Of a stretch of DNA of 44,652 nt, positions 4,813 to 44,652 are shown in pieces. The first letter of the stretch is position 1. Every line of letters starts with the position of its first letter. Location: the NCBI GenBank assembly GCA_025362955.1, contig JANYFB010000033.1, positions 1 through 44,652 on the forward strand, given 5' to 3'. Under the pieces are notes generated by a model. That model was given only the letters and a program-made list of their open reading frames with translations, made no database searches and was not told the DNA's origin. Made by a program: the position numbers and the translations under genes. This DNA comes from Akkermansiaceae bacterium (GTDB taxonomy: Bacteria; Verrucomicrobiota; Verrucomicrobiia; Verrucomicrobiales; Akkermansiaceae).

Positions 4813-5826
4813 CTATCTCTGCACTTCGGGGTTATCGTTTGGAATGGGTTTCTGATCGGCATCCGGTGATCCAGAGGGGAGCTTTATACCGGCGTCTTCT
4901 GCAGCGTGAATGGCTTCTGCCTTTGCCTTTTGGAGGATATCGGCACCGCGATCAGCCAGTTCGGATAGTGTCTCGCCGACTTTGTCGGCTGTGAACCCTT
5001 GTTCCTGTGCTTGATCTTTAATGGTTTCCATCACCTTGACGCCCACTTCCTTTCCGGTTTCGAACAATTCGCCCGCTTTTCCCTTGGTTTCGTCAACGAG
5101 CTTGTCGGAGCGCTCACCCATCAAATCATCTTCCCGACGAGTGCGAGGAATGACTAACCCGGCCAATGCGCCCAATGCGGCGAATGCCACACCGACAGCA
5201 AGGGGATACTCATCACAAGCCTGCGTGAATTTCTTTTCCACCACATGATAACCGCCTTTCAAATCATGACCGACGTGGCGTACGGCAGACCTGCTCATGT
5301 CCATTACTCCGTGCGCGCGCTCTTCCAAGCGCTCCGTGGCGTCTTGGAGCTTGTTGCCAATCTGTTGGGACTTGTCGCGAACGCTATCAATCGCGGAGGC
5401 CGTCGTATCTTTGATACCCTCGACTGTGTTATCTACCCAATCCCCAACTGGATGGCCGTCTCCATTTCGATCGCTCGGAATCCTTGTTCCATTAGACCCG
5501 TTGGGACCATAGGAGGGTTCGTCCTTGTGATCGACGGATTCGGATATCAGCCATGCGACACCGGCACCGATCAGCACGGCGGGCATTGGATGACTTCGGG
5601 CCTGACTCGCCAAGGTAGCCACCACTTTCCGCACCGCAGTGCTTGCATGATTACCGTTGTCTGGTGAGTCCCACCAATCCAAGGCTGAATTCATCAGGGA
5701 TCGCGCGCTCAGGCGATTGCCCAATTCGTCAAGGGTGGAATCCATCCGGCCGCGGGCTTTGCGGATATCAGATTCGATTTCAGAACTCGATCTGTTATCT
5801 TCCTTTGTATTAGTTTCCAGTGTCAT
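4813..5826 (-). CDS. DUF3618 domain membrane protein
   Basis: About 337 aa from ATG 5826. Residues after the first 15 carry the DUF3618 signature (SEIESDIRKARGRMDSTLDELG). Two hydrophobic segments follow, AVLIGAGVAWLIS and PLAVGVAFAALGALAGLVIP, separated by long charged amphipathic stretches that could form coiled coil (repeats of VRDKSQQIGNKLQDATERLEE type). It is the third gene of a tightly packed minus-strand operon: the upstream stop TAA overlaps this ATG (TAATG at 5824-5828), which decides this start over the one 24 bases upstream. Proteins of this kind are common beside holin-X-like proteins and are thought to act at the envelope under stress; the function is unproven. Confidence 0.85.
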   Translation of the reverse strand: MTLETNTKEDNRSSSEIESDIRKARGRMDSTLDELGNRLSARSLMNSALDWWDSPDNGNHASTAVRKVVATLASQARSHPMPAVLIGAGVAWLISESVDHKDEPSYGPNGSNGTRIPSDRNGDGHPVGDWVDNTVEGIKDTTASAIDSVRDKSQQIGNKLQDATERLEERAHGVMDMSRSAVRHVGHDLKGGYHVVEKKFTQACDEYPLAVGVAFAALGALAGLVIPRTRREDDLMGERSDKLVDETKGKAGELFETGKEVGVKVMETIKDQAQEQGFTADKVGETLSELADRGADILQKAKAEAIHAAEDAGIKLPSGSPDADQKPIPNDNPEVQR

Positions 5827-6236
5827 TATGATAGTTTGCTTTGTGCCCATTGCTTATCTTCGCGAAGGCTTTGGACGGTTTTTTTGGGTTTGATGGAATT
5901 GTCACGCAGGTTTTTAAGGGCCTTTGAAATAAGAAAGGCACTGATGGCTCCCACCAAAACTGCGATCACGAGGAAGCCAAGGAACGCGGCCTTTCCGGGG
6001 TCGAATCCGCTGTGGGTAAACAGGTCCCCCAACAAGTAGCCGAATGCCATGAACGCCATCATCAGAGCGGATGACGCGACGAGTGCCCCAATTGCCAGGT
6101 AGCCTAGATTGCGACCCGTCTGGGACAGTTTTTCGCCGATCTCGGTTTTTGCCAAGGCCGCCTCTTCGCTGACTAGCGATAGGACGTCGTCTCTTAAATT
6201 CCTGATCAGGTCTGCGATATTTGTTTCAATATTCAT
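5826..6236 (-). CDS. phage holin family / holin-X-like membrane protein (DUF1469 type)
   Basis: 136 aa. The N-terminal amphipathic segment (NIADLIRNLRDDVLSLVSEE, then ALAKTEIGEKL) is typical of the holin-X superfamily, and is followed by two strong transmembrane segments, YLAIGALVASSALMMAFMAF and AAFLGFLVIAVLVGAISAFL, with a short charged tail. Despite the family name there is no lysis gene nearby, so a holin role is unlikely; in this operon it is better seen as an envelope stress protein. Its start overlaps the upstream gene by four bases (ATGA) and its stop overlaps the downstream start, so the three genes are probably translationally coupled. Confidence 0.85.
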   Translation of the reverse strand: MNIETNIADLIRNLRDDVLSLVSEEAALAKTEIGEKLSQTGRNLGYLAIGALVASSALMMAFMAFGYLLGDLFTHSGFDPGKAAFLGFLVIAVLVGAISAFLISKALKNLRDNSIKPKKTVQSLREDKQWAQSKLS

Positions 6237-6862
6237 TGGAATGGATTAGGTTCGAAGTTAGAGGATAGATCGGATTTATTGCCGTCCGTACGAAGCGGGA
6301 GGCGCTCTTGGTAACTGTTTGAGCCAGCTCCCTTGTCTCGCGGCGATCTGCTGTTCTCACGGGATGAGGCTTTCAAGAATCGCACAGATGCGAGGCCGGC
6401 AACAAATAATCCGCCAAACACGATTTCCGGACGTCGCCGCGCGAGGTCTCCTAGATCGTTGAGGAAATCTTTCGCATCGTGGTTTCGTAGATACTCCGCC
6501 GCGCGTTCCATTTGGCGGGACGCCCGTTGCCCGGGCGATACTAACAGGTTGGCATCCCCGTTTTGGAGCGTTTCGCACGCCGCTTTGACGGCTTCCGTGT
6601 ATCGGACGATCTGGCCGGCCAACTTTTCCTTCTGTTCGTCGATATAGTTGCTTCCCGCGTCCTTCGCGGTTTGCAAGGCTTCGCTGCCGTTCTCTTTGAG
6701 GTTTGCGGCGACTTGCGTAATTTGCTCGCCAGCCGCTTCCTTAACTTCCTGAAAGGGCGATGGCGGGTTGTTGGATGGGGCGCTTTCCTCCGGTATGGGG
6801 GACGAATCGGATTGCGGTGGCATCATTGCGGGCGAGGACCGCTCCAAGGTTTCGGTATTCAT
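6233..6862 (-). CDS. one-TM stress-type protein, first gene of the three-gene operon
   Basis: 209 aa. A Ser/Pro-rich acidic N-terminus (1-38) leads into a long amphipathic helix region with LEA/apolipoprotein-like character (EQITQVAANLKENGSEAL, then a KEKLAGQIVRYTEAV segment), then one short membrane segment (PEIVFGGLFVAGLASVRFL) and a polar tail. It resembles proteins annotated as nutrient deprivation-induced, but no firm family is recognised. It heads the operon with the holin-X-like and DUF3618 genes, sharing an ATGA overlap. The promoter should lie in 6863-7121; no clear box was identified. Confidence 0.75.
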   Translation of the reverse strand: MNTETLERSSPAMMPPQSDSSPIPEESAPSNNPPSPFQEVKEAAGEQITQVAANLKENGSEALQTAKDAGSNYIDEQKEKLAGQIVRYTEAVKAACETLQNGDANLLVSPGQRASRQMERAAEYLRNHDAKDFLNDLGDLARRRPEIVFGGLFVAGLASVRFLKASSRENSRSPRDKGAGSNSYQERLPLRTDGNKSDLSSNFEPNPFQ

Positions 6863-7121
6863 TGGGATGGGATAATTTCGGAGTTACACAGCTTAATGAT
6901 TCCAAGGCGGAATTTCATTGTTGCTGAAAACTTCTTTTCGCAGAACCCGTGCCAGCCCTTAGTAGCCTTTGAACGCGATACCTACGTAGGGTCATGAATA
7001 CATCCACCTGCAATCTGCAAGGCCAAGGTGCACATTGCGCTCAATATGGAAATGCATCTAGCAGCATTTAGTTTTCACCTTGCCTCAGTCAAAATTAGAC
7101 ACTCCTGCTTGAATTAAGCTC

Positions 7122-7400
7122 CTACAATCGACGCGCTAACTCTGTTGCGTTTCGAACCGCGTTGGTATAACGATCGTTGTTGAAATACGCCCACACACGC
7201 TTGGCACAGGACTCTTTGATCCGGCTCACCCATAATGCGAGCTCATCGTCCGAGTAGTCATGCAGATACCATTTCGCCAGTCCGTGAAAGCGGATGTAAA
7301 CATCATCGGCGGTCCTTACCAACTTGTCGGGCAATTTCGGGGTGCTGCAGGAAAAGAAGATAGTTCCGGCTTTTTTGAGATGCATTACAGACCCGGTCAT
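7122..7400 (-). pseudogene. DUF72 protein, C-terminal remnant
   Basis: 92 aa that match only the C-terminal third of DUF72 (YecE-like) proteins: TADDVYIRFHG, then WYLHDYSDDELALWVSRI and VWAYFNNDRY. The normal protein is about 240-260 aa with a TIM-barrel-like fold, so about 150 N-terminal residues are absent. Nothing resembling the missing part is seen immediately upstream. It is taken as a 5'-deleted pseudogene; a short product from the ATG at 7400 cannot be excluded. Confidence 0.65.
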
Positions 7401-7591
7401 TCCACCAACTCTTGTGCCGAAACCGGGATATTTTGAGGGCCGACCATGGCGAATCGGCTATGTAGCTTTCACAGAGTCATCTTGTGAATGCCATACGATG
7501 TAGGGTTTTGCCCCAGTTGCAGGCATAACGAAACCACCTAGACTTCCGCGGTCTTAATCGTCTATCAAAATTTTTAACCATCCAAACTCCG

Positions 7592-8536
7592 ATGTTCTAT
7601 CACTCACAAAACCTGATCAATCCAATCGTCGTTGATGAACCCGATCCGTCAGCCGCCAATGCTTTGCAAGAAGGCCTAGGCGGCCAGTTTGGCGAAATGC
7701 GGACCATGATGCAATACCTGTTTCAAAGCTTCAACTTCCGGGGAGACGGATTGCCTTACCGGGATCTCATCCAAGGCATCGCAATCGAAGAGATAAGCCA
7801 TGTCGAACTTATCTCCAAAACAATATCCCAACTGCTGGATGGAGCGCCGGGCTACTATGGAAAGAAATTCGAGGTGCCCGGCAAAGGAGGTGCTACCCCG
7901 ATGGACATGGCGAAGGAACAACAGAATCCCCATCATTTTATTGTAGGAGCCCAAGGAGCGCTGCCTGTCGATGCCGCTGGCAATCCATGGAGCGGCAGTT
8001 ATGTGCATTGCAATGGAAACCTGGTGCTTGATTTATTGGACAACCTGGTCTTGGAATCAACCGGGCGCTTGCAAAAATGCAGGATCTACCAGATGTCGGA
8101 AAATAAGACACTGCGCGCCACGGTGGCCTTCCTGATCGCGCGGGATGAAGCCCACGAAATGGCCTTTGCAAAGGCCTTGGAAACATTGGGCGTCCAATGG
8201 AACAAGCTGTTGCCCATCCCTAAATTCGACTCATCACAATATCCGGAGGTCAAGAAACTGATAGATGCCGGCGTGAACCGCGAGCAATACCATTTCCGGC
8301 TGGATGAGTCTCAAATGGCGTCGATTTTCAGCGGTTCTGCCCCGGCGAATGACGGGACTGAGCTGGTTACTCTAGCAGAGCCCAGGGAGGTCTATCCGAT
8401 CCCTGCCGCGCCTGAGCGTCCTGAGGAGTTCTCGCCTGGGCTGGATCCGGAGTTGCAGGATCTTGCTGACGCTCTTTTACAGGCAAAGGAGAAGATCCGG
8501 TCCGGCGGTAAGCAGAACCGTTCCAAGAAAAAATAA
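7592..8536 (+). CDS. manganese catalase (dimanganese, non-haem)
   Basis: 314 aa, full length for the family. It disproportionates hydrogen peroxide to water and oxygen in the cytosol with a dinuclear Mn centre in a four-helix bundle. Ligand motifs are visible: GEMRTMMQY (E35), IEEISHVE (E67, H70), VLEST (E155) and RDEAHEM (H188). The conserved start MFYHSQNLINPI agrees with the chosen ATG. The C-terminus ends in a polar lysine-rich tail (GGKQNRSKKK). It has no close operon partner but lies among other stress-related genes (PRC-barrel, DUF892, YflT-like). Confidence 0.95.
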   Translation: MFYHSQNLINPIVVDEPDPSAANALQEGLGGQFGEMRTMMQYLFQSFNFRGDGLPYRDLIQGIAIEEISHVELISKTISQLLDGAPGYYGKKFEVPGKGGATPMDMAKEQQNPHHFIVGAQGALPVDAAGNPWSGSYVHCNGNLVLDLLDNLVLESTGRLQKCRIYQMSENKTLRATVAFLIARDEAHEMAFAKALETLGVQWNKLLPIPKFDSSQYPEVKKLIDAGVNREQYHFRLDESQMASIFSGSAPANDGTELVTLAEPREVYPIPAAPERPEEFSPGLDPELQDLADALLQAKEKIRSGGKQNRSKKK

Positions 8537-9033
8537 AATCGCCGTCGATTTCGCACCCGTCCGGATTTAAATATTGCTACCTTCCGATTCTGGGAAATCT
8601 GAAGGACTGGATTCGGTCGAGCTATAGAAGAACCTCCATACTGCGCAGATCGCGCAGCTGGTCGAAGAACAATCACGGGGAGTGGTGGTTTGTTTTATCT
8701 GCCTGAAAATGCTATGCGTGACCTGCACCTGCCATGGGGTGCATTATCACTTTTCGCCCAAGCAGCTAGGATCATTTCGTCGCCATGCTTTTCTGCCAGC
8801 TTGCCCAAGCCTAGAGCCTGCGCGCGAGCTCGACGGTGATCCCCAACCGGCGGACTTGGACCTGCTTCATCAATGGCTCCAGCAGCGCCGGTAATCCACC
8901 AGATAAGGTGCTTCCTTCGTAAAAGTAGGGCATCACCCCATGGCTGCCGACGATTTCTCAGTTACGCTAATAGGGTAAATCTGCAGCAAGCATCTCTGGG
9001 ACGACCTAATAAAAAGCCACGATAAATCATACC
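8537..9033. other. gene-poor stretch with a short decayed minus-strand frame
   Basis: No convincing gene. On the minus strand about 8824-8960 a stop-bounded frame gives a coherent-looking peptide (GVMPYFYEGSTLSG, then a GGLPALLEPLMKQVQVRRLG segment) that ends at a TAG. It may be a remnant of a lost protein but its family was not recognised. The plus-strand frame at 8682-8894 is its shadow. Confidence 0.35.
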
Positions 9034-9729
9034 ATGTTGAAGAATACCAATGATATTTATGCAACTCCGGTCGCTGCCACGGATGGACTCATTGGCCACG
9101 TAGAGGACTTCTTCTTCGATGATCAAAGTTGGGTTATCCGTTACCTCTTGGTTGATACAGGTTCTTGGTTGCCAGGACGTCAAGTTTTGCTTTCCCCTCA
9201 TGCGTTTAGCGGCTTTGGGGAAGATGGAGAAATCCTGCGGGCGAATCTGACCAAGGAGGAAATTCAATACAGCCCGCCCATCGAAGCTGAACAGCCAATT
9301 ACCCGGGCGCATGAAAGGGATTATTTTTGGTATTATGGTTGGCCTCCCTACTGGGAGTTTGACAGAAGTTGGCCCATTGGGGCGCTCCCTGTTCCCACGC
9401 CCATCCCCATGAGGTCTGCAGCCCTACATGAGAAACTCGATCCTTTGGAGGATATCTATATAAAAAGCACCCACGCGGTTCGCGGTTATGACATTATTTC
9501 ACGCGATGGCGTGCTGGGTGCCATGAGTGGTTTTATGATCGATCACAAGAGTTGGGCCATCGCGGACCTCGTGGTAGAAGCCGGCCCCTGGTACTCCGAA
9601 AAGTATATCTTGGTTTCACACGCGTCTATCAAAAACTTTGGATATAGCAACCGTGAGGTATCGGTCAAACTTAACCGCAAAGAGCCGCAACGCACCGTGG
9701 CGGCTCGCAAACCCGTTCCGAATTTCTAA
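9034..9729 (+). CDS. PRC-barrel domain protein with two barrels
   Basis: 231 aa. Two copies of a PRC-barrel-like unit are seen: about 5-80 (DIYATPVAATDGLIGHVEDF, then WVIRYLLVDTG) and about 148-215 (VRGYDIISRDGVLGAMSGF, then WAIADLVVEAG). Both repeat the pattern of a 'turn' strand, a Gly-x-(V/M) strand and a hydrophobic WxI strand. The linker is rich in aromatic residues (YFWYYGWPPYW). No signal peptide or membrane segment, so probably cytosolic. PRC barrels bind partners or RNA in many contexts; in stress clusters like this one the role is unknown. The gene at 9742 follows after 12 bases, suggesting co-transcription. Confidence 0.85.
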   Translation: MLKNTNDIYATPVAATDGLIGHVEDFFFDDQSWVIRYLLVDTGSWLPGRQVLLSPHAFSGFGEDGEILRANLTKEEIQYSPPIEAEQPITRAHERDYFWYYGWPPYWEFDRSWPIGALPVPTPIPMRSAALHEKLDPLEDIYIKSTHAVRGYDIISRDGVLGAMSGFMIDHKSWAIADLVVEAGPWYSEKYILVSHASIKNFGYSNREVSVKLNRKEPQRTVAARKPVPNF

Positions 9730-9741
9730 TCCATTGTTTTT

Positions 9742-9951
9742 ATGAAAACCATCGAAGCTGCTCGTAATTTAACTCCAACCATCAAACGGCCCACTCGGAA
9801 GATGGTTTATTGGCGCACCATAGAAATCGCCTTGCTGGACGGAAGGAGCCCGCTCCAGATCAAACAATCTGATTATGAACAGGCCAAACGCGAACTGACC
9901 GGCGTTTCGGACTTGGATCTTCAGTTGGAAATTCTTGATCAAGCGGGGTAG
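9742..9951 (+). CDS. small hypothetical protein downstream of PRC-barrel gene
   Basis: 69 aa, cytosolic, no membrane segment. Basic N-terminus (PTIKRPTRKMVYWRTIEIAL) and acidic C-terminal helix (DYEQAKRELTGVSDLDLQLE). The arrangement is vaguely like DUF2934-type small proteins but this is not a firm match. Only 12 bases separate it from the PRC-barrel gene, which supports it as a real second cistron. Confidence 0.55.
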   Translation: MKTIEAARNLTPTIKRPTRKMVYWRTIEIALLDGRSPLQIKQSDYEQAKRELTGVSDLDLQLEILDQAG

Positions 9952-10466
9952 GGGTGGCGGCGGCGATGTCGCCACGAATCGCTTCTGAATCGTTAAGTTC
10001 CCGGCAAAACCCTATCGATTCGCGTTGTGCTTGCTCCCTGCCGGACAAAGAACTTTCATCCGGAATTTTACGGGGAATGGGACTATCTTCACCCACTCCG
10101 ACTCCATCGTCTTAGGGACCTGGGCAAACCTTGATATCGGATGATCTCATGAGGATTCTGGTGGTGCGCAATCAAGGGTTGAAAAGCGCCGAGGCTAAGT
10201 CGCTCCTGTACAAGTCTTCCATGGTGTGTTACCCTACTTTGAGCTAGACGCAAACTGCTAGGAATTTACACACCCTCCGGTCCCACTTTCCCGCCCCAGC
10301 TTCCCACATCGTCATATGACAAGGGCGGACGTTTGTGAATCCTTCCTCAACCAGTAGTCCGAGCAGTCCTACAAGGCCCCATTTCAACTAGGATAGCGAT
10401 TCCAACAACGACGGAATCAAAGATAACTGATTTCGCCAAAAAATTTCCCCCCAAACCATAACAACT
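9952..10466. other. gene-free stretch ending at a strong terminator
   Basis: About 500 bases with only short unconvincing open frames. Because a strong intrinsic terminator follows at 10467, part of this stretch could encode a small RNA or a long 3' UTR of the gene ending at 9951; no promoter was identified. Confidence 0.4.
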
Positions 10467-10504
10467 GCCGGGGTTTCCGCATGGTGCGGAAATCCCGGCT
10501 TTTT
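10467..10504 (+). terminator. strong stem-loop with T tract, no gene directly upstream
   Basis: 15-bp stem (GCCGGGGTTTCCGCA pairing with TGCGGAAATCCCGGC, one mismatch), TGG loop, then five T. Orientation by the T tract is plus strand. The nearest plus-strand stop codon is more than 500 bases upstream. Confidence 0.8.
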
Positions 10505-10665
10505 GGTGGAATCTGGTTTCCTGGTAATTCTGTTGCCGGAAACATGAATAAAAAAAATTGTGAGAAAGGCAGGAGATCGGAAACAGAGGCATGGAACGAG
10601 TTTCTTACTGCATTAGGTGTACACCCCATAGATTCCAGTACAGCCATGATCCAACTTGATATTTT

Positions 10666-10866
10666 ATGAAATATCCGATTTGTGACGAGGGTGAGCAATT
10701 CATCTATGCGTGTAGGCGGCTAGCGGCACGGCTTGATCTTTCCGAGACGGAGCGGGCGGTGAACCACGCCCGCATCAGCCGGGGAGAAAAAGTGTCCGTG
10801 CCCGACTATTTAATGCACTCCATGTCGGTGGCGATGGAAACGCCGCACGACATCCAAGGGGAATGA
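10666..10866 (+). CDS. small hypothetical protein
   Basis: 66 aa, no recognised family: MKYPICDEGEQFIYACRRLA start, predicted mostly helical, no membrane segment. Its ATG overlaps the stop of a 41-codon frame (10544-10669, MNKKNCEKGRRSETEAWNEF start) by four bases (ATGA), the pattern of a coupled pair, but both are so short that chance is possible. It ends about 130 bases before the methionine-rich protein. Confidence 0.35.
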   Translation: MKYPICDEGEQFIYACRRLAARLDLSETERAVNHARISRGEKVSVPDYLMHSMSVAMETPHDIQGE

Positions 10867-10994
10867 TTTGGAATCGTCCAACCCGCGCGTCGGGCGCTGT
10901 GGGTAGGGTTTTCCCCCATTGGATGGATCGATTGTCCGGCATTAGCGTTCCAATGGCTTCCCCTGAAGCGACACCAACCCCTAAAAATAAAATT

Positions 10995-11753
10995 ATGAAA
11001 CTACTGAAAAACACACTCGCTTCGGCGCTTCTTGGACTTGCACTATGTCACACTGCCCGCTCCGAGCCGGAGTCCCAAGGGGCTTCTTTGGAAGCTGACC
11101 AAACCTCGATGAAAAAGGATCACGTCATGATGAAGGATGATAAAATGATGGTCATGAAAGATGGCAAAGTCATGATGATGGAAAAGGATATGACTCTGGC
11201 AGACGGCACGAAGGTCATGATGAACGGCAAGGTGATGATGAAGGACGGAACGACGGCGATGATGTCCGAAGGCGACAAGATTTCCATGGAAGGCAAAATG
11301 ATGCCGGCCGGAATGAAGATGGATCACATCATGATGAAAAAAGGCAAGATGACGGTTAAAATGAACGGCAAAAACATGGTGATGGCCCACGACATGACCC
11401 TAACGGACGGCACCAAGGTCATGATGGATGGTAACGTGATGATGAAGGGCGGAAAGGCCATGATGATGGCCGAAGGCGACATGATCACGATGGACGGCAA
11501 AATGACGAAAGGTAAAATGGTCGGTGATCAGGTGACGATGAAAAATGGCAAGATGATGGTGATGAAGGGCGGCGAAACTATGATGATGACGAAAAACATG
11601 ACTCTGTCCGATGGCACCCAAGTCATGACGGATGGCAAGGTGATGACTGAGGGCGGGAAATCCATGATGATGTCTGAAGGGGACATGATCATGATGGATG
11701 GGACTATGAAAAAGGCCGAGGAATCTCCGAAAGAGCCTGAAAGCAAAAACTAA
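10995..11753 (+). CDS. methionine-rich secreted protein with three DUF6799-like repeats
   Basis: 252 aa from ATG 10995; the frame is open further upstream but the Sec signal peptide (KNTLASALLGLALCHTARSE, cut near residue 22) fixes this start. The mature protein is built of three repeats of about 60 residues (about 42-98, 109-168, 178-236), each with a K-M-x-V-M-x-x-G-K short strand, the motif DMTL(A/T/S)DGT(K/Q)VM and a (A/S)EGDxI end. 57 of 252 residues are Met, and it has no Cys after the signal. The units match what is called DUF6799 in Bacteroidota/Verrucomicrobiota proteins. A periplasmic metal (copper or silver) binding or oxidant-sink role is an inference from Met density only. It is followed by a clear terminator, so it is probably monocistronic. 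Confidence 0.88.
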   Translation: MKLLKNTLASALLGLALCHTARSEPESQGASLEADQTSMKKDHVMMKDDKMMVMKDGKVMMMEKDMTLADGTKVMMNGKVMMKDGTTAMMSEGDKISMEGKMMPAGMKMDHIMMKKGKMTVKMNGKNMVMAHDMTLTDGTKVMMDGNVMMKGGKAMMMAEGDMITMDGKMTKGKMVGDQVTMKNGKMMVMKGGETMMMTKNMTLSDGTQVMTDGKVMTEGGKSMMMSEGDMIMMDGTMKKAEESPKEPESKN

Positions 11754-11771
11754 AATTCTTTAACTGATTAG

Positions 11772-11805
11772 AAAAAGCCGATCGCGAGAGCGACCGGCTT
11801 TTTCG
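11772..11805 (+). terminator. Rho-independent terminator of the methionine-rich gene
   Basis: AAAAAGCCG...CGGCTTTTT outer stem with TCGC/GCGA inner stem and a GAGA loop, 18 bases after the stop codon. A-rich and T-rich arms make it potentially bidirectional, serving also the minus-strand small gene at 11838. Confidence 0.85.
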
Positions 11806-11837
11806 TGCATACAGTTGGGGGGAAATGGTGGTGGAAA

Positions 11838-12026
11838 CTATCCGGAATGCGAGTCCGCCTGATAGTCGTTGGGCTCTGCATCAACTGTGAGAGGAATGTC
11901 CGAGCCATGGGTATTCTCCTGTGTCGCTAGTGCCGCCGCGCGCTCGCGGATCAAGGCTTGGACGAGGGCGTGAATTCCGTTGTTCGGCTTATGCAGAATG
12001 ATTTCCTGATAGATGATTGGCTCCAT
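11838..12026 (-). CDS. small hypothetical protein
   Basis: 62 aa, MEPIIYQEIILHKPNNGIHA start, an Ala/Arg-rich helix (LVQALIRERAAALATQ) and an acidic tail. No family recognised. It lies between the response regulator gene and the bidirectional terminator, on the same strand as the regulator but read towards the terminator. Support is only the open frame and the plausible protein composition. Confidence 0.35.
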   Translation of the reverse strand: MEPIIYQEIILHKPNNGIHALVQALIRERAAALATQENTHGSDIPLTVDAEPNDYQADSHSG

Positions 12027-12125
12027 GGTTCCGAAGACGAGGACGAGGAAATGTAGGAAACATTTCCGGCGGCTGCCATGGGGTGAAACCCTTATCTGAC
12101 TGGTGAGTTAGGAAATCGATGATTC

Positions 12126-12797
12126 TTATAGAATCTTTACCTGCACCATGCTCTCGACGACGCCCTTGGCGATAGCGTAACGGGTAAGGCCAGCGGTATC
12201 GTGGACACCCAGTTTCTCCATCAAGCTCTGGCGATGCTTTTCTACGGTCTTGATGCTGATGTTGAGAATATCCGCAATCATCTTGTTTGCATTTCCCTCG
12301 GCGATGAGTTGGAGAACCTCCGACTCGCGACGTGTTAGCTTGAAAAGCAACGGCTTCTCCAATCCCTTTTTGTTCGGCAACTGCGTGGGATCCACGCGCG
12401 GCGCAATGGCTGGACTGAAATAGGTTTTCCCGCTATGGATCGCCCGGATTGCTTCCGGGAGCACGCGAAAGGCGCTTTGTTTGATAAGGAAGCCGGATGC
12501 GCCCAAGGCGAGCACCTTTTCGACATACGGAGTCTCACTGTAGGCGGAAAGGATGAGAATTTTGGTAGTGCCCTTATCAAGGGCGATTTGGCGGGTGGCT
12601 TCGATGCCATTAAGTATGGGCATGGCGATGTCCATGACGAGGACATCGGGCTTGAGCGTGCGAGTGAGGCTGACGGCCAGCCGCCCGTTCTCAGCCTCGC
12701 CGACGACATGGATGTCCGCCTCTTGTTTCATGAGGGCACGCAGGCCTTCGCGGACGATGGTGTGGTCATCTGCTAGGAGGACGGTAATTCGTTTCAT
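12126..12797 (-). CDS. NarL/FixJ-type response regulator
   Basis: 223 aa. The receiver domain (1-120) has the acidic pocket D10/D11, phospho-acceptor D56 (VLVMDIAMP), switch residue S84 and K106 (FLIKQSAF). The C-terminal LuxR-type helix-turn-helix (about 155-215) reads LTRRESEVLQLIAEG, then NISIKTVEKHRQSLMEKLGV. It is a cytosolic DNA-binding regulator activated by phosphorylation. Its expected partner histidine kinase lies immediately upstream (6-base gap) but is reduced to an ATPase fragment, so the regulator may now be an orphan or take phosphate from another kinase. Confidence 0.93.
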   Translation of the reverse strand: MKRITVLLADDHTIVREGLRALMKQEADIHVVGEAENGRLAVSLTRTLKPDVLVMDIAMPILNGIEATRQIALDKGTTKILILSAYSETPYVEKVLALGASGFLIKQSAFRVLPEAIRAIHSGKTYFSPAIAPRVDPTQLPNKKGLEKPLLFKLTRRESEVLQLIAEGNANKMIADILNISIKTVEKHRQSLMEKLGVHDTAGLTRYAIAKGVVESMVQVKIL

Positions 12798-12803
12798 TTT
12801 TTG

Positions 12804-13145
12804 TTAGGAGGGATTCGTAGTGGCTTGGGACTTAGTGGGAGGGATTTTGATTTGGACACGGATGACGGTATGGCGGCGGGGTCCGGAAATCATTGAGATT
12901 TTGCCGCCGATCATCTCGGCCCGTTCTTTCATGCCGATCAGGCCGAGACGACCTTGCTTCTCGGCAGCGGACTTCGTACTTGGCCCAAAGCCCTGGCCGT
13001 TATCAGAGATCTCCATAGTTCTAAATCGTAAGAAGGCGGTCGTTTGGAGGAATAGCGCAAGGGAAAACTTTTGTGGCGAATCAGCCAGAGACATTCTGGG
13101 ATCAAATGAGGACACCATTTTCCAAGCAATCTGTCGCGGTAGCAT
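12804..13145 (-). pseudogene. sensor histidine kinase, remnant of the HATPase domain
   Basis: Only the end of a NarX/DegS-type HATPase domain is recognisable: MEISDNGQGFG (G1 box), RLGLIGMKERAEMIGGKISM (G2 box region) and a final strand pair. The His phospho-acceptor region, the N box and any sensor part are not seen in this frame or in neighbouring frames up to 13300. The first 43 residues of the frame do not look like kinase sequence. Intact relatives are several hundred residues. It sits directly before the response regulator in operon order, so a kinase-regulator pair has lost its kinase by 5' deletion. Confidence 0.7.
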
Positions 13146-13255
13146 TTCACCCCATTGGCGGTGCGCCGATTTTGCCTATAAATGACGCGTCCTCGGGAGC
13201 AATCGAGAGACACTTCCCCACAAAAATCAAACTGATCGGCCCGTGGGATCCGACC

Positions 13256-13309
13256 AAGCTGTGACCGCCAAGAAACCAACCAATCAACCAACCTTGGCGG
13301 TCACAGCTT
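13256..13309. repeat. 17-bp perfect inverted repeat with A/C-rich loop
   Basis: AAGCTGTGACCGCCAAG (13256-13272) and its exact reverse complement (13293-13309) flank a 20-base loop made of repeated AACC units. There is no T tract on either side, so it is not a standard terminator. It lies between the decayed kinase and the gene at 13337. Confidence 0.85.
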
Positions 13310-13336
13310 CCTACTCATACCTAACCAAAAACGCCC

Positions 13337-13780
13337 ATGGCCATCACCCCACAACCGTCCTTTCGATTTCATCGGCGCTGTCAGGTGTCCCAGCCCAGGC
13401 TCGGCCAGAGCCAGGATGTTTGGAATATGAGGGGAGTCTGCAAACGTTCCATCCACGAAAATTTAGATCTCCTTGCAGAGCCCAAGAAGACATTGCAGCA
13501 GGCCATGGAAGAGCTGAAGGCGGAGGACGCCCGGCTGTTCAGGATGAGGCAAATCCAAATTCGTACCTGCCTGTGCTGCGTGGGTCTTCTAATGACGGCG
13601 GTGCTTATCCAGATCGCCTCACTCAATCCGGGAAATCCGCCCAAAGTCTCTGCTTCCACCGCCCCCGTGGAGGAGAAAATGAGGCCATCATCGAAGGTTG
13701 TGATAGACCTTGAGGAGGACCATTCAAACACCTCACTGACCGGACGTAACATCACTCTATCCAATTCCTCCCCCCCATGA
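13337..13780 (+). CDS. hypothetical one-TM protein upstream of YflT-like gene
   Basis: Up to 147 aa; an internal ATG at 13427 (MRGVCKRSIHENLDLLAEPK) may be the true start since the first 30 residues look non-conserved in character. A charged helix (KKTLQQAMEELKAEDARLF) precedes one transmembrane segment (CLCCVGLLMTAVLIQIASL), followed by a polar, probably periplasmic tail. The stop overlaps the next ATG by four bases (ATGA), supporting a real, coupled gene. No family recognised. Confidence 0.55.
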   Translation: MAITPQPSFRFHRRCQVSQPRLGQSQDVWNMRGVCKRSIHENLDLLAEPKKTLQQAMEELKAEDARLFRMRQIQIRTCLCCVGLLMTAVLIQIASLNPGNPPKVSASTAPVEEKMRPSSKVVIDLEEDHSNTSLTGRNITLSNSSPP

Positions 13781-42012: not shown

Positions 42013-42107
42013 GAAATCCAGCGATGAAAAAGCCGGGGATTCAATATGGGGAAAAATGAAATTCAAACTGATCCACCGCCTCGCTATTGGTAGTGGGTCA
42101 GTTTGAA
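42013..42107 (+). repeat. left copy of 95-bp perfect inverted repeat
   Basis: Base-for-base identical to the reverse complement of 44558-44652. Contains TTCAAACTGATCCAC and, 16 bases on, GTGGGTCAGTTTGAA, an imperfect palindrome (one mismatch) able to form a 15-bp hairpin. Base 42012 cannot be compared because the other copy meets the window edge. Confidence 0.95.
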
Positions 42108-42162
42108 ATCCCCTCGAAATTCTTTGATTGAAGCGGTCCCGCGATGGTGCGAAGCTGCAAGC

Positions 42163-42342
42163 ATGATCAGCCCCGAGCAACCCGGCCCGCCGAAGGATGA
42201 GAAGAAAGCGCCACCTCCAGACAAGCAAGATCGCGCCAAGGGTGAATGCGCGTGCGGTCACGACCACGACTCCGCCGAGGAGCAAGGCGTGGATTCCGCC
42301 AACGACTTCATGCGGAAGTTTTTGAAGAAGTCCGAGGAATGA
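42163..42342 (+). CDS. small Cys/His-motif hypothetical protein
   Basis: 59 aa from ATG 42163 (MISPEQPGPPKDEKKAPPPD): a Pro/Lys-rich acidic-basic N-terminus, then GECACGHDHDSAEE with a C-x-C-x-H-x-H cluster that could hold a metal ion, and a helical FMRKFLKKSEE end. No family recognised. The stop abuts the end of the convergent HTH-P63C gene. An upstream ATG at 42103 lies inside the left repeat and is less likely. Confidence 0.5.
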   Translation: MISPEQPGPPKDEKKAPPPDKQDRAKGECACGHDHDSAEEQGVDSANDFMRKFLKKSEE

Positions 42343-43485
42343 TTACTTCATGAATCTCGAATCATAATCCCCAAGAAGGAGCTGCTCCGCCGATCCCTTT
42401 TTCGGAAATGTGAGGTTGATAAGGTGGTAATAGGACTCCCATTCCTGAAAGCCGTCCATCATTTTGGTAACGGCAAAGAGGTGGCGATCCAAATCAGGTT
42501 GTCCCACCTCATCTGAGAGCCATTGATGGTGCTTAACGGCCCGCCTTCCACCATCGAGCACCGGATTGATATCTTCCAATTTATCCAGCACGCCCGGTTC
42601 TAGTCGCTGATAAACGATGTCCTTCGTGATTTTCCCAAATACTGGAGGTCTTTTCCATACTGGAGAGTCCCAAGACCAATGCTTTAGACGCATTATTCCG
42701 GTATAAAAATCATCCGGGAATCGCTTGGTCCATCGAGCATAGGCGTCTCGAAAGTAAGCATCAAACAACCGTTGGAGAGCATCCCGGCGTTTTTTGGTTT
42801 CGTATCCTGTCGCCTCATAAATGAGGGCCGTAATCCCGACCTTGGCCAAGCTCTCCACCAGCAATTCTGCTTGCTGAGCATAGCGGGCCCCTTGGCTGTT
42901 GGGGCTGAATTCCTTGGTTCGCCGCGCCTCCAAGAGTCCCTTGCAGTAGTCAACGATGAGCGTCCCCTCATAGCCGTTGGACAAACAATTATTCGAATTT
43001 ATGTATTTTACAGGATTGCTTACAGCATGGCGTAAGTCCCTAAACCACTTGGAGTTAAGGTTGTCGGATTCAATGATATTGGCCAAGCGTTCACCAGTCG
43101 CGTAAGCACCTTTGGTGATGCCAAAAAAGTCTAAAAATGAGGCAGTTGTGACGACCGCGACTTCGTTATCTAAGACCGCGGCATGAAACTTATACTTCCC
43201 GAGTGTGAGCGGCGCACTGGTGATCTCTCTTCGCTCGATCCCGTTGGGGTCTTTCCATTCTAGGTCATAATCGGCCTGAAGCTCCACCCAAAAGGCGACG
43301 GGGGTTTTAAAAAACTGCGCCAAGACCGCCGCAGTCTCAGAGGTGATTCGTCGTTTTCCGTTGAGAATCTCGCTGACGCGAGATTGGGCAAGCCCTGTCT
43401 CTTTGCACATCTCATAGGCAGTCACATTTCTGATTTTCAGCATTCGCTTCAAAACGTCTGATGGTCGTGGTGTTTCTTCCTTCAT
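42343..43485 (-). CDS. HigA-like HTH protein fused to a P63C domain
   Basis: 380 aa from ATG 43485. Residues about 8-75 are an XRE/HigA-type helix-turn-helix (VTAYEMCKETGLAQSRVSEI, then LNGKRRITSE and FFKTPVAFWVELQADYDLE). From about 98 to the end it follows the P63C domain: KYKFHAAVLDNEVAVVTTAS, FLDFFGI, then ALIYEATGYE, KRFPDDFYTGIMRLKHW, RPPVFGKITKDIVYQRL, KHHQWLSDEVG. P63C is a phage- and plasmid-associated domain of unknown activity. HigA proteins are antitoxins, but no HigB-like toxin gene is adjacent. Its own promoter and palindrome suggest autoregulation. It is divergent from the transposase (about 90 bases) and lies within the inverted repeats, so it is inferred to be cargo. Confidence 0.85.
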   Translation of the reverse strand: MKEETPRPSDVLKRMLKIRNVTAYEMCKETGLAQSRVSEILNGKRRITSETAAVLAQFFKTPVAFWVELQADYDLEWKDPNGIERREITSAPLTLGKYKFHAAVLDNEVAVVTTASFLDFFGITKGAYATGERLANIIESDNLNSKWFRDLRHAVSNPVKYINSNNCLSNGYEGTLIVDYCKGLLEARRTKEFSPNSQGARYAQQAELLVESLAKVGITALIYEATGYETKKRRDALQRLFDAYFRDAYARWTKRFPDDFYTGIMRLKHWSWDSPVWKRPPVFGKITKDIVYQRLEPGVLDKLEDINPVLDGGRRAVKHHQWLSDEVGQPDLDRHLFAVTKMMDGFQEWESYYHLINLTFPKKGSAEQLLLGDYDSRFMK

Positions 43486-43493
43486 CGAGAAGC

Positions 43494-43536
43494 AGAATAA
43501 CAACCGATGTTTATCCGTCAAGCGTAATTACTTACG
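43494..43536 (-). promoter_or_regulatory. sigma-70-like promoter and palindromic operator candidate for the HTH-P63C gene
   Basis: On the minus strand TTGACG (43516-43521) and TATTCT (43494-43499) are 16 bases apart, with the ATG only 8 bases past the -10 box, so the transcript would be nearly leaderless. Just upstream of the -35 box lies CGTAA-N4-TTACG (43523-43536), a good site for a HigA-type dimer. The same site sits about 40 bases before the transposase ATG and could also affect it. Confidence 0.5.
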
Positions 43537-43577
43537 TTTTATCTTGCGGTAGCTCAGTTGGTCGCCATGATCTCCAC

Positions 43578-44555
43578 ATGAACCGCACCGCAACCGAGAA
43601 AAGAGCGATGATCATCCGCTGCCTTACCGAAGGAAACTCGATTCGTTCAACGGTCCGGATGACTGGAGCTGCCAAGAACACGGTGACCAAGCTGGTCGTT
43701 GAGTTCGGAGAATTTGCAGCATGGTATCAGGACAAGATGCTTCGTGACCTCAAATGCACGGACTTGCAACTTGATGAGATTTGGGCGTTCTGCGGTTGCA
43801 AGGAGAAAAACAAGGGGACTTCCAGCCACCCGCAGGGCGGCGACATCTGGACTTGGACGGCACTCTGCCGGGACACAAAGCTCGTTCCTTCGTGGTTGGT
43901 CGGGGATCGCGGCATGAACTCCGCCCGTGAGATTGTCGATGACCTTGCCTCCCGCCTCGCCAATCGCGTCCAAATCAGCACAGACGGGCACCGGGCATAC
44001 GTTCACGCCATCAAGGGAGCTTTTGGCCATGACGTTGACTATGGCCGTCTTATCAAGGTTTACGGAACAGACAACCAAGGCCGGGAAATCGTAGTTCGTG
44101 CCGACAAGGTTCCTACCATTGGAAATCCTGAAATGGACAATGTTTGCACAAGCCACGTTGAACGCCAGAATCTCACGATGAGAATGCAGATGCGTCGATT
44201 CACTCGGCTGACCAATGGATTTTCTAAAAAGGCTGAGAACCATGCCGCCATGGTTTCCATTCATTTCTTGAACTACAATTTCATCCGCAAGCATCAGACG
44301 CTCAAAACAGCGCCTGCTGTTGCAGCCGGGGTAATCAGCAAGCCGATGACGCTGGAAGAACTTCTGGACCTCTTTGACGAGTTCCGCTCAGACCTGTATC
44401 CGGTGAACCGTCCGCTACGCTACCGTCCACGCTCCAACCGTGAAACCTACGAGCCGCAGACACCACTTACGCCGTGGTATCTCGATCCTGAGAGCGGAGG
44501 CCGATGCCCGCCGATGGATCAGCGGAAACCGGGGATTGCGTATGGTGACGAATAA
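43578..44555 (+). CDS. IS1-type DDE transposase
   Basis: 325 aa from ATG 43578. N-terminal helix-turn-helix (TEGNSIRSTVRMTGAAKNTV), then the catalytic core aligned with IS1 InsB: LDEIWAFCG (D66), ISTDGHRAYVHAI (D136) and SHVERQNLTMRMQMRRFTRL (E195), with the FSKKAENHAAMVSIHFLNYN segment after it. All three acidic residues are present and the frame is intact, so it is probably active. The protein is longer than E. coli InsB' (about 232 aa) and needs no frameshift. The stop lies 2 bases before the right inverted repeat. It carries an extra C-terminal tail of about 60 residues rich in Pro and Arg. Confidence 0.88.
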   Translation: MNRTATEKRAMIIRCLTEGNSIRSTVRMTGAAKNTVTKLVVEFGEFAAWYQDKMLRDLKCTDLQLDEIWAFCGCKEKNKGTSSHPQGGDIWTWTALCRDTKLVPSWLVGDRGMNSAREIVDDLASRLANRVQISTDGHRAYVHAIKGAFGHDVDYGRLIKVYGTDNQGREIVVRADKVPTIGNPEMDNVCTSHVERQNLTMRMQMRRFTRLTNGFSKKAENHAAMVSIHFLNYNFIRKHQTLKTAPAVAAGVISKPMTLEELLDLFDEFRSDLYPVNRPLRYRPRSNRETYEPQTPLTPWYLDPESGGRCPPMDQRKPGIAYGDE

Positions 44556-44557
44556 AA

Positions 44558-44652
44558 TTCAAACTGACCCACTACCAATAGCGAGGCGGTGGATCAGTTT
44601 GAATTTCATTTTTCCCCATATTGAATCCCCGGCTTTTTCATCGCTGGATTTC
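44558..44652 (-). repeat. right copy of the 95-bp perfect inverted repeat, cut by window end
   Basis: Exact reverse complement of 42013-42107. It begins two bases after the transposase stop codon, where an IS end is expected (TTCAAACTGACCCACTACC). The match reaches the last base of the window, so its full length is unknown. Confidence 0.95.

Follow-up and report, generated by a model that had tools for sequence, protein, structure and literature searches.

The window analysed here, the whole 44,652-bp contig C54 of genome G000 (352 contigs, 3.92 Mb, 90% complete), ends in a cargo-bearing IS1-type transposon whose clade very probably inserts at a fixed spot 6 bp from the XerC arm of dif, in either orientation, and leaves dif intact. 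The dif site is the site at which bacteria separate joined chromosomes. The original prediction of a long perfect inverted repeat in the contig was confirmed: the arms at 42013-42107 and 44558-44652 are 95 nt long and 100% complementary, with 0 mismatches and a 2,450-nt spacer, and the last base of the right arm is the end of the window. Complementarity over 95 bp far exceeds chance. The 95-bp repeat is not itself the end of a mobile element, as each arm consists of an inner 19 bp, the terminal inverted repeat (TIR), and an outer 76 bp that is either the left host flank (42013-42088) or the same flank reversed. Only the inner 19 bp is the element end, which we conclude because the sequences of the two ends diverge beyond it. 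Since the outer 76 bp of the arms is host flank, the element itself spans 42089-44576 (2,488 bp) and contains a small ORF, an HTH-P63C gene and an IS1-type transposase. The features of the region are:

42030..42080, forward strand: decayed right end of an earlier, related element, lying within the host flank
42081..42088, forward strand: 8-bp spacer TCGCTATT, from the old tip to the new tip
42089..42107, forward strand: left TIR GGTAGTGGGTCAGTTTGAA, matching the right end at 19/19 positions
42103..42342, forward strand: small left-end ORF with a TTG start and an ATG at 42163, ending in VDSANDFMRKFLKKSEE
42343..43521, reverse strand: cargo gene, HigA-like HTH fused to P63C, 392 aa
43578..44555, forward strand: IS1-type DDE transposase, single ORF, 325 aa
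44379..44552, forward strand: C-terminal extension of the transposase, approximately aa 268-325
44558..44576, reverse strand: right TIR, the right end of the element
44577..44652, reverse strand: reverse complement of left flank 42013-42088, reaching the contig end

The prediction that a transposase and two further ORFs lie between the arms holds as well, with the IS1-type assignment resting on profile matches to Pfam DDE_Tnp_IS1 (PF03400; 1.2e-8, 35.8 bits against a cut-off of 24.1) and to the NCBIfam IS1 equivalog (3.3e-17), the latter at 63 bits and thus under its cut-off of 100. Residues D66, D136 and E195 are invariant in an alignment of the transposases and are candidate catalytic residues. 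The cargo protein matches Pfam P63C (1.6e-27) and HTH_3 (2.1e-7), TIGR02607 antidote_HigA (1.1e-13) and phrog_2384 (6.4e-71); going by these domains, it probably acts as a module of antitoxin or defence type and so promotes persistence of the element. The small ORF at 42103-42342 has no match in Pfam, NCBIfam or PADLOC. Position 43548 (GGTAGCTCAGTTGG) was considered as an internal left end and rejected, since the relatives lack a tip at this place and cargo lies within their TIR pairs.

These relatives were found by scanning for inverted ends and 8-9 bp duplications around IS1-type transposases. The scan returned seven elements in the same bacterial family, 2.27-3.21 kb in length with GGTAGTG tips, all of which have a perfect 8-bp duplication; their TIRs are perfect over 16 bp in six cases and carry one mismatch in G085. 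The same scan at random placements gave perfect results in 0 of 60 cases. The original suggestion of a cargo-bearing IS1 relative is therefore correct, as the relatives carry cargo between the same tips and are bordered by 8-bp target duplications.

One relative, at locus L027 (genome G127, Akkermansiaceae MAG JANXMQ010000083.1), shares the left ORF with the window's element (256 bp at 88-89% DNA identity) and has a transposase of the same type that has decayed through an internal deletion. Its cargo differs from that of the window and is identified by PADLOC as RmrA and RmrT (4.9e-143 and 4.5e-53). Genome G025 carries a complete 2,281-bp element with target duplication GGTTTTGT, another P63C gene and a broken transposase frame. 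The small ORF is retained in G127, and its C-terminal part in G025, with a dN/dS of ~0.28 between the window and L027. The transposases are broken in both L027 and G025, so current activity is no more than a possibility. Members on alphaproteobacterial plasmids, of Mesorhizobium loti (CP050295.1; 3,370 bp, CGCTGGTG) and Hoeflea (NZ_CP011481.1; 4,224 bp, GATGATTG) likewise have cargo and a perfect 8-bp duplication. Across the family, cargo includes an XRE antitoxin-like gene, a PD-Lambda-2 component and a SocA-Panacea antitoxin; the relatives' cargo thus varies and, as annotated, appears toxin-antitoxin or defence-like.

The window's own genome holds one of the seven scanned elements, a 2,592-bp wider-family member with target duplication GATAGTTT (contig C65; L085 7029-9620). 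Its transposase is 42% identical, and it has further small ORFs, with no Pfam match in the two scanned. Another family member, of 2,273 bp with target duplication GTGAACTC (L077 8038-10310, on G114:C355), lies ~510 bp from dif and belongs to a clade that shows no exact dif targeting.

The sequence beyond the tip, SGCATTACATNTATTGTNAC, was searched for in 254 family genomes and is single copy in 75 of the 76 that contain it, while a reversed control gave about no matches in the same 254. In the complete genome G082, SGCATTACATNTATTGTNAC lies at 1,577,027, where GC skew goes from positive to negative, and the opposite switch occurs at ~4.2-4.6 Mb of 5.32 Mb. We identify SGCATTACATNTATTGTNAC as dif because it has one copy per genome and is located at a GC-skew switch. 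It also aligns with the XerC and XerD arms and 6-bp centre of E. coli dif.

Among 260 family genomes searched, the tip occurs exactly or with one mismatch in the window's genome and four others; the same tip is present in G127, G025, G117 and G237, and an extra tip match in G172 does not resemble an element end. The distance from the tip to the 11-bp XerC arm is exactly 6 bp at all five loci with a readable neighbouring sequence, namely the remnant on contig C268 of the window's assembly and the loci in G127, G117, G237 and G025. The end that faces dif is the left one in G025 and the right one in G127, G117 and the C268 remnant, so both orientations occur, and dif lies on one side only of these elements. 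As the loci in G117 and C268 are orthologous, both may descend from a single old insertion, in which case the independent events would number fewer than five. A broader search of 388 phylum genomes with the pattern CACTACC-N9-SGCATTAC, allowing one mismatch, gave chance-level matches only.

The left flank of the window records an earlier visit to the same spot. Over 47 bp, the remnant there shares 81% identity with the intact element's right end, and its tip TTCAAACTGATCCACCGCC has 3 mismatches relative to the intact TIR. The two head-to-head tips of the original prediction are thus real, with a decayed tip at 42062-42080, an intact tip at 42089-42107 and 8 bp between them, and their arrangement is explained by two successive insertions at one spot: old remnant, 8 bp, new element. 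The remnant followed by dif is present in C268 too, and an orthologous solo end is found in G117. C268 shares this flank at 98% identity over 236 bp, with the match reaching exactly to 42088, beyond which it has CCGCATTACATATATTGTCACAAGTT in place of the element; here TCGCTATT runs straight into CCGCATTACATATATTG, which is dif. C268 is an unoccupied dif allele at the exact insertion point of the window's element, although the 2% difference means that it may be another strain. An older element would have inserted first and decayed to an end remnant, and the newer one would then have entered between the TCGCTATT spacer and dif; TCGCTATT at 42081-42088 is expected to be the left target-site duplication of the new element. 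Solo transposon ends lie beside dif in three genomes (L034 in G117, L030 in G237 and window 42030-42080), and in each case it is the dif-proximal end that persists. It seems that decay proceeds from the end away from dif and that dif itself is retained.

The right flank departs from this arrangement. After the right TIR the contig continues for 76 bp in the reversed left flank and then stops; the expected TCGCTATT-dif is absent, so that the window's right junction with dif is not assembled, and we infer that the right end of the element abuts TCGCTATT-dif. It had been proposed that the contig breaks at a multicopy repeat, and this is wrong, as the 95-bp repeat occurs in full nowhere else in the genome. 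The copy count suggested as a check found that, outside its own contig, 42013-42107 is matched well only by C268, over 76 of 95 bp; a dispersed intergenic repeat is likewise rejected by this search, since the repeat is not multicopy. Nor is the 95-bp repeat the assembler's final k-mer, because contig overlaps, examined on a sample of the assembly's contigs, are 141 bp. A terminal self-inverted repeat was found in 0 of 21 other contigs tested.

The reversed copy of the flank at the right end probably arose either because the sampled population contained the element in both orientations or through an assembly effect. The first is allowed by the orientation freedom of the transposon family, but if both orientations were present, the junction of element and dif should also assemble, and none was found. 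The original caveat that the right copy might be an assembly artefact may be right about the outer 76 bp on that side, where an assembly effect competes with mixed orientations. In its specific form, an assembly or amplification chimera in which the 76 bp arose when the template was switched at the 19-bp inverted tips while the element exists in one orientation only, this explanation merits serious though less than even weight. Template switching fits with two perfect inverted tips of 19 bp separated by 2.45 kb, the dif junction expected in the assembly is missing, and the 141-bp overlaps point to a k=141 short-read assembly, whereas an assembled junction normally requires repeated read support. 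We consider it unlikely that flank, element and reversed flank form a true chromosomal inverted duplication, or that the element inverts between its 19-bp tips in the manner of a switch. The assembly does contain a path leading from the right end into the reversed flank, and no other sampled contig ends in this way; against this, the right copy stops exactly at the contig edge, the ORFs within the element include no recombinase apart from the DDE transposase, and the relatives have normal target duplications. Both of these readings concern the right flank only.

For the element as a whole, the dif loci of G000, G127 and G117 have right-hand genes in common and other members of the wider family lie away from dif, as would be seen if an ordinary IS1-type transposon with random targets owed its proximity to dif to shared ancestry of one old terminus insertion. 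This is improbable, as the left flanks, 8-bp spacers, orientations and genera (g1 and g13) all differ, the window has a second insertion atop an older remnant, and a remnant in another family (G820, described below) lies at that family's own dif. Less probable still, and contradicted by the data, is the composite with one decayed IS copy that had been offered initially, two inverse IS1-type copies, one cut to a tip, bracketing captured genes: the left arm does have two tips, and its flank resembles the IS right end at 81%, but the cargo lies within a single TIR-to-TIR element, the relatives have one transposase in one TIR pair with cargo inside and 8-bp duplications outside, the left ORF is retained at the left end in G127 and G025, and the decayed tip, an older insertion in the flank, is present in C268 without the element.

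The best reading is insertion at dif by a cargo-bearing transposon. The DDE transposase would make 8-bp staggered cuts beside dif, guided by recognition of dif or of XerC bound there, and dif would be regenerated upon insertion so that the host is unharmed. A cargo gene of antitoxin or defence type, as the domain matches suggest, would stabilise the element. We infer that the transposase recognises dif or dif-bound XerC, perhaps through its C-terminal extension. This extension of ~55 aa is conserved and common to the window, G127 and G025, is absent from non-dif relatives, and is under strong purifying selection (dN/dS ~0.03, window versus L027). A search for the extension in 384 class genomes gave four matches, in G000, G025, G663 and G820. 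In G820, which belongs to a different bacterial family, a remnant ends ~40 bp before TTTCATATGACATATATTGTATGAAGTT. Of 40 genomes from that family, 12 contain TTTCATATGACATATATTGTATGAAGTT, each exactly once. Judged by the single copy expected of dif, TTTCATATGACATATATTGTATGAAGTT is the dif of this family. G663 carries the extension, with no dif recognised nearby. The fuller proposal, to which we give even chances, is that an IS1-type lineage independently evolved dif hunting, that the extension is a module for recognising dif or XerC, and that the chromosome terminus provides a landing pad where toxin-antitoxin or defence cargo can be exchanged.

Tn7, which uses attTn7, and the res-site hunters Tn402/Tn5053 share with the present elements the logic of a safe, conserved target site, and differ in both transposase and target. 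IMEX elements and Xer-integrating phages of the CTX type integrate by XerC/D recombination and yield two dif copies, and IMEX have no transposase of their own. Like these, the present elements occupy dif and benefit from its conservation; unlike them, they have TIRs, a DDE transposase, target duplications (in relatives) and a single dif. Classical IS1 elements are ~0.7-1.2 kb long, carry no cargo, express insA/insB by frameshift and show low target specificity, and the IS1 family also includes single-ORF and long subgroups (ISMhu11-type lengths). The present elements share with the IS1 family the DDE_Tnp_IS1 domain, TIRs (19 bp in the window) and 8-bp duplications (seen in relatives), and depart from classical IS1 in their cargo, single ORF and length (2,488 bp). 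They are IS1 in the broad sense by transposase, and not classical IS1 by size, ORF layout or cargo. A composite transposon has two complete IS copies at its ends, whereas here there is one transposase gene, one TIR pair and no second genomic copy.

A literature search for IS1-family elements with cargo or at dif found only work on the IS1202 family to be relevant, and no other dif-targeting DDE element. Members of that family (ISAjo2, ISAba32 and others) are termed 'dif hunters' and lie 5 bp away from pdif or chromosomal dif, on its XerC side, without disrupting the site (PMC10132070). They have a TnsB-like transposase of 441-457 aa, target duplications of ~5 bp, 5'-TGT ends, a fixed orientation, a length of 1.5 kb and no cargo (PMC10132070). 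Both groups thus consist of DDE elements whose distance from the XerC side is short and fixed, 6 bp here versus 5 bp, and the elements described here differ in their IS1-type transposase (325 aa), GGTAGTG ends, 8-bp duplications (in relatives), either orientation and cargo. The two transposases are unrelated.

Almost all circular bacterial chromosomes have a single dif site, which is intergenic and has to be retained, and a transposon that reads dif therefore has a near-universal safe harbour. If our interpretation is correct, IS1-type transposases, usually deemed unspecific, can acquire precise targeting, perhaps via one short C-terminal segment, and small defence or addiction modules have a route by which to swap at one fixed locus.

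Some further observations concern the surroundings of dif. To the right of dif, a gene that we named by eye as a WYL/YafY-like regulator is present in G127 (L027) and G117 (L078), with an apparent broken copy in C268 (L082). Locus L078 (G117:C102:60000-79000) also has two dif-like sites in the same orientation ~8.2 kb apart (~5470-13690), between which lie Zot-like, secretin-like and replication-initiator-like ORFs; this segment, which adjoins the solo transposon end, is probably a filamentous phage that entered dif through Xer integration. Finally, CACTACAGAAGACTGACGCATTAC is present with small variations in about nine copies in one distant genome (G434), where it is probably an unrelated dispersed repeat.
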